A DNA stretch of 36,081 nucleotides from a virus. The translations under genes and the position numbers were made by a program. The stretch spans positions 1-36,081 of IMG/VR virus record IMGVR_UViG_3300017971_000537. One strand, 5' to 3'. Below are positions 2,692 to 11,993 of this stretch, one piece after another; positions within the stretch are counted from its first letter, which is position 1, and every line of letters starts with the position of its first letter. The notes beneath the pieces were generated by a model. It was not told the DNA's origin and did not search any database. It was given only the letters and a program-made list of their open reading frames with translations.

Positions 2692-3216
2692 ATGTCTAAA
2701 TTAAATATGGGTTATGTTCTTGTCAAACATCCAAACCACCCAAATGCCCACCATGATGGTTATGTCCCAGAGCATCGGCTCATTGTTGAAGCCCATCTTG
2801 GTCGTTATCTTACGCCTAAGGAATGTGTCCATCACATTAATGGGGATAGATCTGATAATCGCATCGAAAACCTTGTTGTAATGACATACCAACATCATGC
2901 ACAAATACATAATGGCAATTTTCATATGCTTTCCAATAAAAAATGGCTTGTCTATCAGTACATAACCCTGAATAAAACAATTATAAAAATATCAAAGGAG
3001 CTTGGATGTAGCAATACCTCTGTTTACAAAGCACTTAAAAAACATAAAATTAAAATTAAGGTTCGACATAAAACCAGATTTCCAAAGCTCCTTGACAAAA
3101 AATGGCTTAGAAAAAAAACTGAAACCATGACCCAACATGAAATAGCAAAACTTCTTGGTTGTAGTCATACCTCTGTTTACAGGTTCCAAAAATATTATAA
3201 TATCCATAAGCCATGA
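2692..3216 (+). CDS. HNH homing-type endonuclease with two helix-turn-helix repeats
   Basis: A 174-residue HNH nuclease. The metal-finger core reads EHRL (H28), VHHING (H47-H48), then N56 and N60, the pattern of phage HNH_3-type enzymes that nick or cut DNA. Two similar DNA-binding repeats follow: residues about 97-120 (ISKELGCSNTSVYKALKK) and 147-170 (HEIAKLLGCSHTSVYRF), each preceded by KKWL. A good ribosome site (AGGAG) and its own promoter lie upstream. It sits on the strand opposite to the flanking capsid and beta-helix genes, as expected for a free-standing homing endonuclease inserted between them. It is related to the HNH nuclease at 10284-10856, but there the helix-turn-helix is N-terminal. 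Confidence 0.9.
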   Translation: MSKLNMGYVLVKHPNHPNAHHDGYVPEHRLIVEAHLGRYLTPKECVHHINGDRSDNRIENLVVMTYQHHAQIHNGNFHMLSNKKWLVYQYITLNKTIIKISKELGCSNTSVYKALKKHKIKIKVRHKTRFPKLLDKKWLRKKTETMTQHEIAKLLGCSHTSVYRFQKYYNIHKP

Positions 3217-8886: not shown

Positions 8887-11373
8887 TTAATACCCCGTAT
8901 ATCTGTCTACTACATTATTTCCCACTACCCTTGGTTCCCCGTAATGGTTGAATGGGGGGCCATAGAGTTTATCAACCGGGATCTCGATAGCAATTTTCAT
9001 GCCAGTAAGGATGAGATATTTCAGGCAGTCCATTAAATGGTCATTCTGTTTGACCACTTTCCCGTTCTCGTCCCTATGGTAAAGCCTAAACTCGTCAAAG
9101 AACGGGCGTAACGACCTAAATATCTTTAGTCTGCCCGACACCAACCGTTGCCAAACAGCAAATATACCAGCCTCAACAGGATTCTCTGCAAGGGATAAAT
9201 CCAAGCCAAGCTCAACATACTCGTTAAATAGGCTTTTACCGTCCTTCTGGCTTGAAGCCCGTGAAGCAGGATCAGCACAACCCGGTATCCATGACCCTCT
9301 GGCGTTTATCGCCTGGACATGGGTAGCTGGTTCTGCTTGCCCTTGCTTGTAGCATGAATAAATATAGACGATATCCGATTCTCTATCCCATGCCCCCCAC
9401 AGAGCAGCGGTAGCATTCCAACCCACATCTAACGCATACGCCCGTGGATACCACAGGGGAATCTCAAAATCGTCACACGCTATATCTTCCTCTAATATCG
9501 GGTATATCGCCCCTGCACCCAACTGAGGAATACCCTTTGCTCTGGCATCCCGTAAATAGGGGGGTGTTCCGTCTAATATCTCCTGCTTCTGCGATTCGGT
9601 TAAATGGGGGGCATCCTCCCATGTAGCGTTGATAATGAACTTTGACCCCTCCTGGTCTTCGGGGATTATGCCATTAGGCATAAAATTCATAACAACTTCA
9701 GATAATCCCAACAACGGTGTAAAGGTCAGGATCACCATACCGTTCGTTGTCATGGTACGAATTAGGCACTCACCGTATATTGCCATTGAACATTCTTCGT
9801 CCAACCATGCAACATCGACTTCATCCCCCTGGAACGCCTTACGTTTCTGGTCAAACGACTTAAACACCCCACGGCTCAACCCCCCAGATGTATGTTTGAC
9901 AAGAACAGATTCAACCGCATCCGGAACACCCCCTGCCTTTGGGTTGACCTTAGCGATAGTGTCCTTCCGGATCATGCCCGTGCCGTATTGTCCCGGGGGC
10001 CCTAACAGTTTTGCCTGTTGAATATCCCTCACGGTCTGGGATGTATCACCCGCCATCCAACACAAAACAGGGTCTTTAAACCTTCTACCCTCCCACCAAT
10101 CAGGATACTGACCTGTTAGGTGTAACGCTACCTCATACGCCCCAATTCCCTCACTATTATGATGTACCAAACCACCTGCAATATAATTATGATATTTTTC
10201 TACTTCAAAATCAAAAACGGTATTGACACCAATAGATTTTATTGATACTATATACTTACTACTTTTAGTAAAGGAGATTTCTGATGCCACCAAAGATTGA
10301 GTTGGATTTAGCAGATTTAAAATATTTAATTGAGTCGAAGGGATTACAGCTCCACATTGTTGCAAAGATGTTAGGGGTGAGTAGATCAACAATTCTAAGG
10401 GCTTGCAAAGAGCATACAATAAAAACTCAAAGAAATGGCCCACGATCTGGTTCAGATCATCCTGGATGGAATGGAGGCAATATTTCAACAAATGGATATA
10501 ATTATATTTACTGCCCCGACCATCCATATTGTACAAAACAGAAAAGAGTTTTTGAACACCGGCTCGTAATGGAAAAGAAACTTGGTCGCTATCTTCACCC
10601 TGAAGAAGTTGTGCACCATAAAGATGGGAACCGTTCCAATAACCACCCAGATAATTTAGAGCTTTTTTCAACAAATAATGTTCATAGATGTTTTGAATTA
10701 ATGGTACGGATAAAATACCTGTCTCAGAAAGAGCGTAGTCGTCTTCAGAGTGCTCTTGACAAAATCCCGAATATATCTCGGAAACGAATTGCCAACCATG
10801 ATCAGTTAGAACGCGATGATTTAGGGCGGTTTCTACCCAAGAACCGTCAGACATAGTTATTCTTACACACGGTTCTTTGTTGGGTTTTTTGAATGGGGCT
10901 TTTGCTTGTGCTATCACCTTTTTTTGACCATCCCACGAAAATACTTTGAATGGTTTCCCTATTTCAAAAAGTTGTCCAATACTTACTTCCCCGTTAGGCG
11001 TTTGTATAAGTGTTTGATATGTCAGACATTTTCCAATACGATTCGCGGCGATTATCGCCCGTTCCCTCTTAACCGCCCCCTGCCTGAAAAATTCAAGGTG
11101 TGGCCTGTATAATTCCCTTCTTAACGGTCCCCTGTCGGGGTAATATATGTCAATCTTGTTGTATAGCTTGCGATTTTCAAGCTCCGTTACCTGCACAAGC
11201 ATACTTTCAAGCTCAGAACGGGGTATGCCGTCCAAATCATCAGGTGTTATCTCTTTTCTGGCCCTTGTTATCTCCTCAAAGGTCTTCCTGACGATCTCGA
11301 CATCACACCCTTTGGCCTTGACTACCTTTTTTTTAGGCTTTTTTGGTTGTTTTTCGGGCTTTTTTATTGGCAT
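8887..11373 (-). CDS. Terminase large subunit, interrupted by an intein
   Basis: Packaging ATPase and nuclease that moves and cuts phage DNA at the portal. Numbering from an in-frame TTG at 11391: the Walker A motif ANRIGK-SEGIG is split after K121 by a 291-residue intein and resumes at S413. Walker B is VAWLDE (527-532), the coupling motif TFTP is at 556-559, and the nuclease acids are D655 (ALDVGW), D707 (CADPAS) and D788 (HLMDCL). Without the intein the protein is about 540 residues, a normal TerL length. I prefer ATG 11373, though neither start has a strong ribosome site; the start lies inside the 3' end of the small gene 11333-11518, so coupling is likely. Active enzyme requires protein splicing. 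Confidence 0.93.
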   Translation of the reverse strand: MPIKKPEKQPKKPKKKVVKAKGCDVEIVRKTFEEITRARKEITPDDLDGIPRSELESMLVQVTELENRKLYNKIDIYYPDRGPLRRELYRPHLEFFRQGAVKRERAIIAANRIGKCLTYQTLIQTPNGEVSIGQLFEIGKPFKVFSWDGQKKVIAQAKAPFKKPNKEPCVRITMSDGSWVETALNHRVLTDHGWQFVSEIYSGFCQEHSEDDYALSETGILSVPLIQNIYEHYLLKKALNYLGGYWNGSHLYGAQLLQGEDSDQVSFPLRAGVQKLFSVLYNMDGRGSKYNYIHLLKYCLHSIQDDLNQIVGHFFEFLLYALCKPLELLIYSPLTSLQQCGAVIPSTQLNILNLLNPTQSLVASEISFTKSSKYIVSIKSIGVNTVFDFEVEKYHNYIAGGLVHHNSEGIGAYEVALHLTGQYPDWWEGRRFKDPVLCWMAGDTSQTVRDIQQAKLLGPPGQYGTGMIRKDTIAKVNPKAGGVPDAVESVLVKHTSGGLSRGVFKSFDQKRKAFQGDEVDVAWLDEECSMAIYGECLIRTMTTNGMVILTFTPLLGLSEVVMNFMPNGIIPEDQEGSKFIINATWEDAPHLTESQKQEILDGTPPYLRDARAKGIPQLGAGAIYPILEEDIACDDFEIPLWYPRAYALDVGWNATAALWGAWDRESDIVYIYSCYKQGQAEPATHVQAINARGSWIPGCADPASRASSQKDGKSLFNEYVELGLDLSLAENPVEAGIFAVWQRLVSGRLKIFRSLRPFFDEFRLYHRDENGKVVKQNDHLMDCLKYLILTGMKIAIEIPVDKLYGPPFNHYGEPRVVGNNVVDRYTGY
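10223..10251 (+). promoter_or_regulatory. Sigma-70-type promoter inside the intein, for the antisense HNH gene
   Basis: TTGACA at 10223-10228, 17 bases, then TACTAT at 10246-10251. It points at the HNH ATG 33 bases further on. On the other strand the same bases encode part of intein block F (GVNTVFDF) and the strand before it (YIVSIK), so promoter and splicing domain share DNA. The -35 box, spacing and promoter-to-start distance match those of the HNH gene at 2692. Confidence 0.8.
10284..10856 (+). CDS. HNH homing endonuclease encoded antisense within the intein
   Basis: A 190-residue HNH nuclease. An N-terminal helix-turn-helix (about residues 22-45, HIVAKMLGVSRSTILRACKEH) is followed by the HNH core: FEHRL (H92), VVHHKDGNRSNN (H111-H112, N120), and DNLELF (N124). 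AAAGGAG lies seven bases before ATG 10284 and a consensus promoter lies upstream. It lies completely inside the intein but on the plus strand; its last 25 or so codons overlap intein block B in antisense. The core resembles the HNH gene at 2692 (both have EHRL, GRYL.P.E and VHH...G.RS.N), but the domain order differs. It would probably cut intein-free terminase genes and so drive intein homing. Confidence 0.92.
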   Translation: MPPKIELDLADLKYLIESKGLQLHIVAKMLGVSRSTILRACKEHTIKTQRNGPRSGSDHPGWNGGNISTNGYNYIYCPDHPYCTKQKRVFEHRLVMEKKLGRYLHPEEVVHHKDGNRSNNHPDNLELFSTNNVHRCFELMVRIKYLSQKERSRLQSALDKIPNISRKRIANHDQLERDDLGRFLPKNRQT

Positions 11374-11518
11374 TCGACAACTTTTTCGCAATTATCCTTA
11401 ACGTACCATCACTTTTGCGCCTTTTTACCCCTAAAAAAACATAACCTTTGGGAAAAAGCCAAACCTGATCCCCTTTAACCTCAATAAAACGGGGTTCTAA
11501 TTCAATTATCTTTGGCAT
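11333..11518 (-). CDS. Small basic protein overlapping the terminase start
   Basis: A 61-residue protein (MPKIIELEPRFIEVKGDQVW...) with a beta-type first half and a very basic tail (KKLSNANKKARKTTKK). AGAAGGA lies five bases before ATG 11518. It overlaps the start of TerL by about 40-60 bases and is itself overlapped by the end of the next small gene upstream. The basic tail suggests nucleic-acid contact. Function unknown. Confidence 0.6.
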   Translation of the reverse strand: MPKIIELEPRFIEVKGDQVWLFPKGYVFLGVKRRKSDGTLRIIAKKLSNANKKARKTTKKA

Positions 11519-11615
11519 TTTTATCCTTCTTAAATATTTTGTCCCAATTTTTCCGATATTTGTCGCTTATCGGTATAATCTTTACCCCACATGAGCCGTT
11601 TTTACAGTTAGACAT
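11502..11615 (-). CDS. Very small cysteine-containing protein
   Basis: A 37-residue frame from ATG 11615 (MSNCKNGSCGVKIIPISDKY...) to TGA 11502. AAGGAGAAATACTT upstream is a strong ribosome site and the stop overlaps the next gene by 17 bases, the close packing seen throughout this operon. A Cys pair in the first ten residues could bind metal. No homologous family is known to me. Confidence 0.55.
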   Translation of the reverse strand: MSNCKNGSCGVKIIPISDKYRKNWDKIFKKDKNAKDN

Positions 11616-11627
11616 AAGTATTTCTCC

Positions 11628-11993
11628 TTATCCAAAACTCGGTATAAGGCTTGAAGGTATGTTTGCGGGCCATATGCCAATCGTTACGTCAACAGCCCCC
11701 CCATAGGCACCACCCCCAACAGCCGTTACAGTCAACCAAATACCATAACGGGCATAACTGTCGTCACCCTCAACACCGTTTAACCCCATAGCAGAAGCGT
11801 CAAACGGGTTTGTCGGTATCAATTCAGTTGTCGTCCCAGGGGTAGGAGTCACAATTGAGTCATAAACCGTTATCTGAGCGTCATTAGCGTTATCCTGCCC
11901 CAGCTTAAAATTCACAAACCAACAGGAACCCTTATATATCAAACCGGAGTAAGATGCCCCGGATACTGTTTTCGTGTAGGGAAAACACTTCAT
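11628..11993 (-). CDS. Uncharacterised, possibly structural protein
   Basis: A 121-residue protein with no signal peptide and a beta-rich, Gly/Ala/Thr-rich sequence (LTVTAVGGGAYGGAVDVTIGIWP) typical of small phage virion proteins. It starts at ATG 11993, overlapping the stop of the preceding gene by ATGA. No domain recognised. The virion role is inferred from composition and operon position only. Confidence 0.6.
   Translation of the reverse strand: MKCFPYTKTVSGASYSGLIYKGSCWFVNFKLGQDNANDAQITVYDSIVTPTPGTTTELIPTNPFDASAMGLNGVEGDDSYARYGIWLTVTAVGGGAYGGAVDVTIGIWPANIPSSLIPSFG

Follow-up and report, generated by a model that had tools for sequence, protein, structure and literature searches.

Where does an intein keep its homing endonuclease when its own reading frame codes for none? 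This question is raised by the gene of the large terminase subunit (TerL) in the IMG/VR virus record IMGVR_UViG_3300017971_000537, of which positions 1 to 36,081 were analysed (36,081 nucleotides (nt), hereafter the window). TerL is here one open minus-strand frame of 834 codons (8887-11391), interrupted inside its P-loop, after ANRIGK, by a canonical class 1 intein of 291 residues. On the other strand of the intein coding sequence lies a complete gene for an HNH protein with a predicted helix-turn-helix (HTH). We consider it very likely that this locus belongs to a family of mobile inteins in which the homing endonuclease is encoded antisense and expressed independently; that splicing, transcription, cleavage and homing take place is inferred here from sequence.

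An intein in TerL and an HNH gene on the opposite strand

TerL matches the profiles Terminase_6N (3e-19), Terminase_6C, Intein_splicing, TIGR01445 and TIGR01443. Both intein ends are detected by Pfam and NCBIfam, and with the intein alone as query the Intein_splicing match (5e-10) exceeds the family cut-off. The splicing blocks A, B, F and G and the terminal HN before Ser, on which the original prediction was founded, are all in place (Table 1). Inteins of the same arrangement were found in other TerL genes, and comparison with intein-free alleles shows that its boundaries are exact: 79 of 81 relatives align uninterrupted across the RIGK/SEG junction. Catalytic residues were scored in the 47 or 49 members that align over the whole intein; C1, H71, D273, H290 and N291 are invariant (47 inteins), and the residue that follows the intein is Ser in 95, Thr in 37 and Cys in 10 of 142 cases. 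In the AlphaFold2 model of the intein, the predicted local distance difference test score (pLDDT) is 93-98 at residues 1-90 and about 258-291, which hold the blocks, and about 50 in the linker; with this model as query, every PDB match at E <= 0.001 is an intein or an intein-like domain, the best ones being inteins, as expected of a Hint fold. Since cultured Pectobacterium phages, which are viable, carry the intein in their TerL, and given the intact catalytic residues, the intein presumably splices itself out.

Two trivial explanations were rejected. In an independent contig (3300018080_003384), the same 7.2 kb recur with 99.93% nt identity, which makes an assembly chimera unlikely and speaks against an artefact at the intein boundaries or in the HNH frame; another contig shares the C-terminal part of the intein, the C-extein and the downstream region. 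An RNA intron in place of the intein was also discarded, as an Rfam search gave no match at the site and a single sub-threshold match elsewhere (11600-11645).

The antisense open reading frame (ORF) matches HNH_3 (PF13392, 6e-11) and PHROG HNH families (2e-29), and residues H112, N120, N124 and H134 of its product are invariant among 44 relatives. Its AlphaFold2 model has a pLDDT of 89.7, and the N-terminal helices (residues 9-43) resemble HTH domains; the HTH Pfam matches each fall below their cut-offs, and a PDB sequence search with the protein gave matches in the HTH region only. We propose that this protein is an HNH homing endonuclease, which would cleave DNA and drive homing. The sense frame of the window intein gave no nuclease match in Pfam and NCBIfam searches, as had been anticipated. 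The 190-codon antisense gene with its ribosome site and promoter was also found as predicted, at the predicted position, but it is not limited to the stretch from block B to block F: at its 3′ end it crosses block B, so that the codon of the catalytic histidine is read by both genes. The same overlap is seen in 38 of 49 aligned members.

Table 1. Features of the TerL locus in the window
Feature	Position	Strand	Details
TerL C-extein	8887..10155	-	Remaining ATPase domain and RNase H-like nuclease domain; Terminase_6N, Terminase_6C, PHROG terminase large subunit
Class 1 intein, 291 amino acids	10156..11028	-	Cys1 ... His-Asn291, then Ser; PF14890, TIGR01445, TIGR01443
Intein block G	10156..10170	-	LVHHN, then Ser +1
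Intein block F	10171..10218	-	
Candidate sigma-70-like promoter, TTGACA-17-TACTAT	10223..10251	+	Inside intein coding sequence, adjoins block F
Shine-Dalgarno AGGAG	10272..10276	+	7 nt before the HNH ATG
Antisense HTH-HNH endonuclease gene (predicted)	10284..10856	+	190 codons and TAG stop; HNH_3, PHROG HNH
Intein block B, GSWVETALNHRVLT	10804..10845	-	Catalytic His codon 10816-10818; HNH gene overlaps on opposite strand
Intein block A, CLTYQTLIQTPNG	10990..11028	-	
TerL N-extein	11029..11391	-	Ends ...AANRIGK at P-loop

A widespread class under two kinds of selection

Far from being the single oddity that it first seemed, the arrangement is widespread. An initial search with the HNH protein gave two more TerL genes that hold an intein with an HNH gene opposite to it (L004/L005 and L006) as well as eight cultured Pectobacterium/Dickeya phages, and later searches with alignments added further sets of relatives. 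The first screen, which admitted any opposite-strand frame, yielded 55 non-redundant members, and the antisense phase is identical in all 55. In total, 175 non-redundant HNH relatives were collected, 150 with an open frame opposite in the intein phase and 25 without. Both intein blocks are present in 142 of these 150; among the other eight, five have the C-terminal block only, mostly at contig ends, and three have neither. The element is inserted directly at a GK[S/T] P-loop in 129 of the 142 cases. Most members sit in TerL genes (Terminase_6, Terminase_3 and related), others in genes for helicases or further P-loop ATPases. Since no nuclease family appears among the listed Pfam and NCBIfam matches of the 55 sense frames, these elements do not look like large inteins with a nuclease in their own polypeptide.

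The class occurs in viral contigs, in two contigs of metagenome-assembled genomes and in nine deposited phage genomes, namely the eight Pectobacterium/Dickeya phages and Pseudoalteromonas phage PHS3. In the former, TerL is labelled "hypothetical protein" in the records examined. PHS3 (L105, KX912252.1, 1700-3826) is a cultured case with an annotated HNH gene, in which TerL is annotated without its N-terminal part; despite this shortened annotation, the open TerL frame runs on through the intein. In the deposited genomes of Ymer-genus and Setonix phages (L101, L102, L104, L200, L201), the intein and the antisense HNH gene are unannotated, and the paper on the Ymer genus makes no mention of an intein or endonuclease. 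The two metagenomic cases (L187, L188), in bins of an uncultured Methylococcaceae and an actinobacterium, are perhaps prophages or misbinned phages. PLSDB plasmids gave four weak HNH matches. Five deposited phages with weaker HNH matches were not counted, as annotated, because the match lies under same-strand genes: Shagrat (L103), Manatee Spring (L106), phiH (L107), Providencia PSTNGR2lys (L416) and Gordonia GAL1 (L417).

The two strands bear very different marks of selection. Across 28,362 HNH codons, not one stop occurs in the intein frame, whereas the two remaining antisense frames hold 982 and 1,459. Free-standing HNH relatives have 4.5-5.1 stops per 100 codons whichever phase is read, and all of them are closed in the intein phase. 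As the open set is defined by openness, the fair reading of these counts is the bimodal gap between zero and several stops, together with the frame-agnostic set. In the window, synonymous resampling of the HNH codons leads to an expectation of 7.0 sense stops, and the frame was open in none of 1,500 resamplings; the observed number is 0. In the phase used here, position 3 of the HNH codon is position 2 of the sense codon, and divergence is highest at HNH position 3 (0.228, 0.205 and 0.392 at positions 1, 2 and 3). The ratio of nonsynonymous to synonymous substitution rates (dN/dS) is 0.04-0.28 for HNH (23 pairs) and about 1.3, pooled, for the sense frame; a sense ratio near or above 1 is a consequence of the constraint on HNH and does not indicate positive selection. 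Because HNH dN/dS is low and the sense frame is stop-free yet freely changing, the HNH protein is selected for its sequence and the intein linker for openness alone. The AlphaFold models agree with this division, with intein blocks and HNH protein predicted confidently and the linker with low confidence. The class thus provides a neat example in nature of antisense dual coding, in which one strand is kept for protein sequence and the other for openness only.

These results bear on two further explanations. GC-rich genes give long antisense ORFs and some members are GC-rich, so the antisense frame might be a by-product of the intein coding sequence that makes nothing. This is hardly credible: the HNH catalytic residues are invariant, HNH is constrained opposite a sense frame that evolves freely, and the HNH gene of the window has just 39% GC. 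A spurious ORF is ruled out by homology, by the selection tests, which already contradict it, and by the stop statistics. It is also very improbable that the sense frame is open while the intein is dead or decaying, with TerL inactive or working as two fragments. The low confidence of the predicted linker is in line with such decay, whereas the invariant catalytic residues across aligned members, the absence of stops in the overlap and the presence of the intein in the TerL of viable cultured phages speak against it.

Start signals of the HNH gene and a proposed mechanism

The HNH gene starts at a nearly constant distance from the C-terminal end of the intein (median 131 nt, and exactly 128 nt in 13 of 55 members). 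A Shine-Dalgarno core of at least 4 bases stands upstream in 38 of 55 members, compared with 14% of control windows. Promoter-like sites scoring at least 10/12 precede the gene in 24% of members versus 3.3% of dinucleotide shuffles, and sites scoring at least 9/12 in 55% versus 18%. Nearly perfect promoters are found in L004 (TTGACA-18-TATATT), L178 (TTGACA-18-TATACT) and PHS3 (TTGACA-17-GATAAT). In the window, the site scores 10/12 with an extended TG; a search of the window for the exact TTGACA-TATACT promoter gave no match, the actual -10 element being TACTAT. As promoter-like sites are enriched throughout the class and some are nearly perfect, the nuclease gene very probably has its own promoter within the C-terminal coding sequence of the intein. 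The idea that nuclease expression is separate from splicing is therefore supported by the conserved HNH frame, its own ribosome site and the enriched promoter-like sequences, and its timing would be expected to differ from that of TerL transcription.

We propose the following model. From the minus strand, the intein would be translated as part of TerL and then excise itself, its long linker having no evident role besides remaining stop-free. From the plus strand, the HTH-HNH homing endonuclease would be transcribed from the promoter in the C-terminal coding region of the intein and translated from its own ribosome site, on a schedule of its own. In a mixed infection, the nuclease would bind and cut the P-loop coding sequence of an intein-free TerL, and repair of the cut would copy the whole intein into this gene. 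If so, the nuclease would be freed from splicing and from the timing of host-gene expression, and the antisense transcript might also restrain TerL. Moreover, inteins that look nuclease-free and have a long linker may hide a gene on the opposite strand; surveys restricted to the host frame would call them immobile, because the nuclease gene is on the other strand. As cultured phages carry the arrangement, splicing, antisense expression and homing are all directly testable.

Several observations weigh against this proposal. First, the structural match of the HNH protein to a known homing endonuclease is modest. VIA-align ranks I-HmuI (PDB 1u3e) first, with Z 7.0 over 80 residues and 26% identity, a score that lies in the range of common arrangements, and Foldseek gave no significant match with the HNH model (best E 0.33). 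Second, only a minority of members have convincing promoter motifs, and the window promoter alone is not significant, 15% of shuffles reaching it. Third, the survey turned up no two near-identical phages of which just one has the element. The empty alleles nearest to the intein-bearing ones share about 57% (window) and 72% (Pectobacterium) protein identity with them, the latter being the TerL of Escherichia phage KW1E_UTAR, which is uninterrupted at the site; at such distances, recent homing is not demonstrated. Finally, intein GC tracks that of the host gene (r 0.89), which suggests long residence.

Origin of the element and known systems

Divergence of the intein and of the HNH protein is correlated (Mantel r 0.63, with 0/5,000 permutations reaching it; 0.31 among distant pairs). 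On the HNH tree, whose node supports are modest, six changes suffice between nested and free-standing states, and the host-gene family changes 12 times, which is the minimum for 13 families. The fixed phase and the few changes of state and host favour a single, old composite element that seldom moved to a new host gene and seldom escaped, and a single origin of the nested arrangement is suggested. In its fullest form, this reading holds that a single-origin, bidirectionally coded intein family exists in tailed phages, that catalytic block B is read on both strands in most members, and that an independently transcribed HTH-HNH nuclease recognises P-loop coding DNA and has spread the unit to TerL families, helicases and other ATPases. 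We regard it as reasonably probable, with less assurance than the antisense nuclease itself.

A quite different history would be that a free-standing HNH gene was inserted antisense by chance into a mini-intein, the two being mutual passengers, and that the nuclease targets another site or has, for example, a packaging role. Related free-standing HNH genes do exist (25 in the survey, one of them in the window at 2692-3216), and phage HNH proteins with packaging roles are known (mentioned in PMC11855218). We nonetheless judge this history unlikely. A single phase in all 55 members, a nearly fixed start position, the correlated divergence of intein and HNH and the P-loop site shared by most members point to a unit that has long held together and has one target in common, and the few state changes on the HNH tree are also against it.

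The antisense endonuclease is thus preferred, and its nearest precedents are group I introns with an antisense nuclease gene and the ShiLan insert, whose hidden HNH is on the same strand. As the original prediction rightly noted, in some group I introns the homing endonuclease gene lies on the complementary strand, as in the nuclear ribosomal DNA introns of Porphyra (PMC2585584). In both cases, a nuclease gene is nested antisense in a self-splicing element, but the intron is an RNA element whose sense strand is free to close, while here both strands code simultaneously. The ShiLan domain is a hidden HNH in phage DNA methylases, in another frame than the uninterrupted host frame (PMC11855218). 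That feature is shared, but the ShiLan HNH is on the same strand and its insert is thought to stay in the host protein, unlike the opposite strand and full intein seen here; the present case is therefore not an alternative frame devoid of a splicing element. The methyltransferase genes of ShiLan-type mycobacteriophages turn up among the HNH matches.

In canonical large inteins, such as those of phage TerL, the homing endonuclease domain (LAGLIDADG or HNH) is read in frame with the splicing blocks and lies between B and F (PMC5050341). The present element is like such inteins in its splicing blocks, its insertion in the TerL ATPase domain and the location of the nuclease between N- and C-terminal splicing blocks, and differs in that the nuclease is outside the intein polypeptide, in a separate opposite-strand gene with its own start signals. 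In one TerL relative (L091:2699-4588), the same site in the P-loop is occupied by an intein whose own frame contains LAGLIDADG-type motifs, recognised by eye (LVGVLLGDG and ILQGLMDTDG); this intein starts with Ala in place of Cys. I-HmuI, the best structural match of the HNH core, is intron-encoded and has other DNA-binding parts, in contrast to the N-terminal HTH found here. In the "fractured genes" of Dassa 2009, split inteins are reportedly accompanied by free-standing endonuclease genes. There too, intein and nuclease would be separate gene products, but the intein gene is said to be split, while that of the window is in one piece and shares its DNA with the nuclease gene. No description of an antisense nuclease gene in an intein was found in the literature on phage inteins, homing endonucleases and hidden HNHs, subscription papers being mostly outside this search; an earlier precedent is possible in the preprint of Gosselin et al. 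2025 on actinobacteriophage inteins ("non-canonical architecture") or in Dassa 2009.

Other elements were noted in the course of the survey. The free-standing HNH gene of the window, a member of the same broad family, is on the plus strand and has a minus-strand gene on either side. A free-standing HNH gene between a helicase gene and another gene (L147:1779-2411) groups with nested HNHs and is a possible escape from an intein. Another intein-like element is located near the C-terminal part of a TerL relative (L049:3735-4139). Finally, a second site of the ATPase domain, further along at C-extein residues about 165-171, holds insertions of about 50 to 1,300 nt in many TerL relatives (L071-L098).
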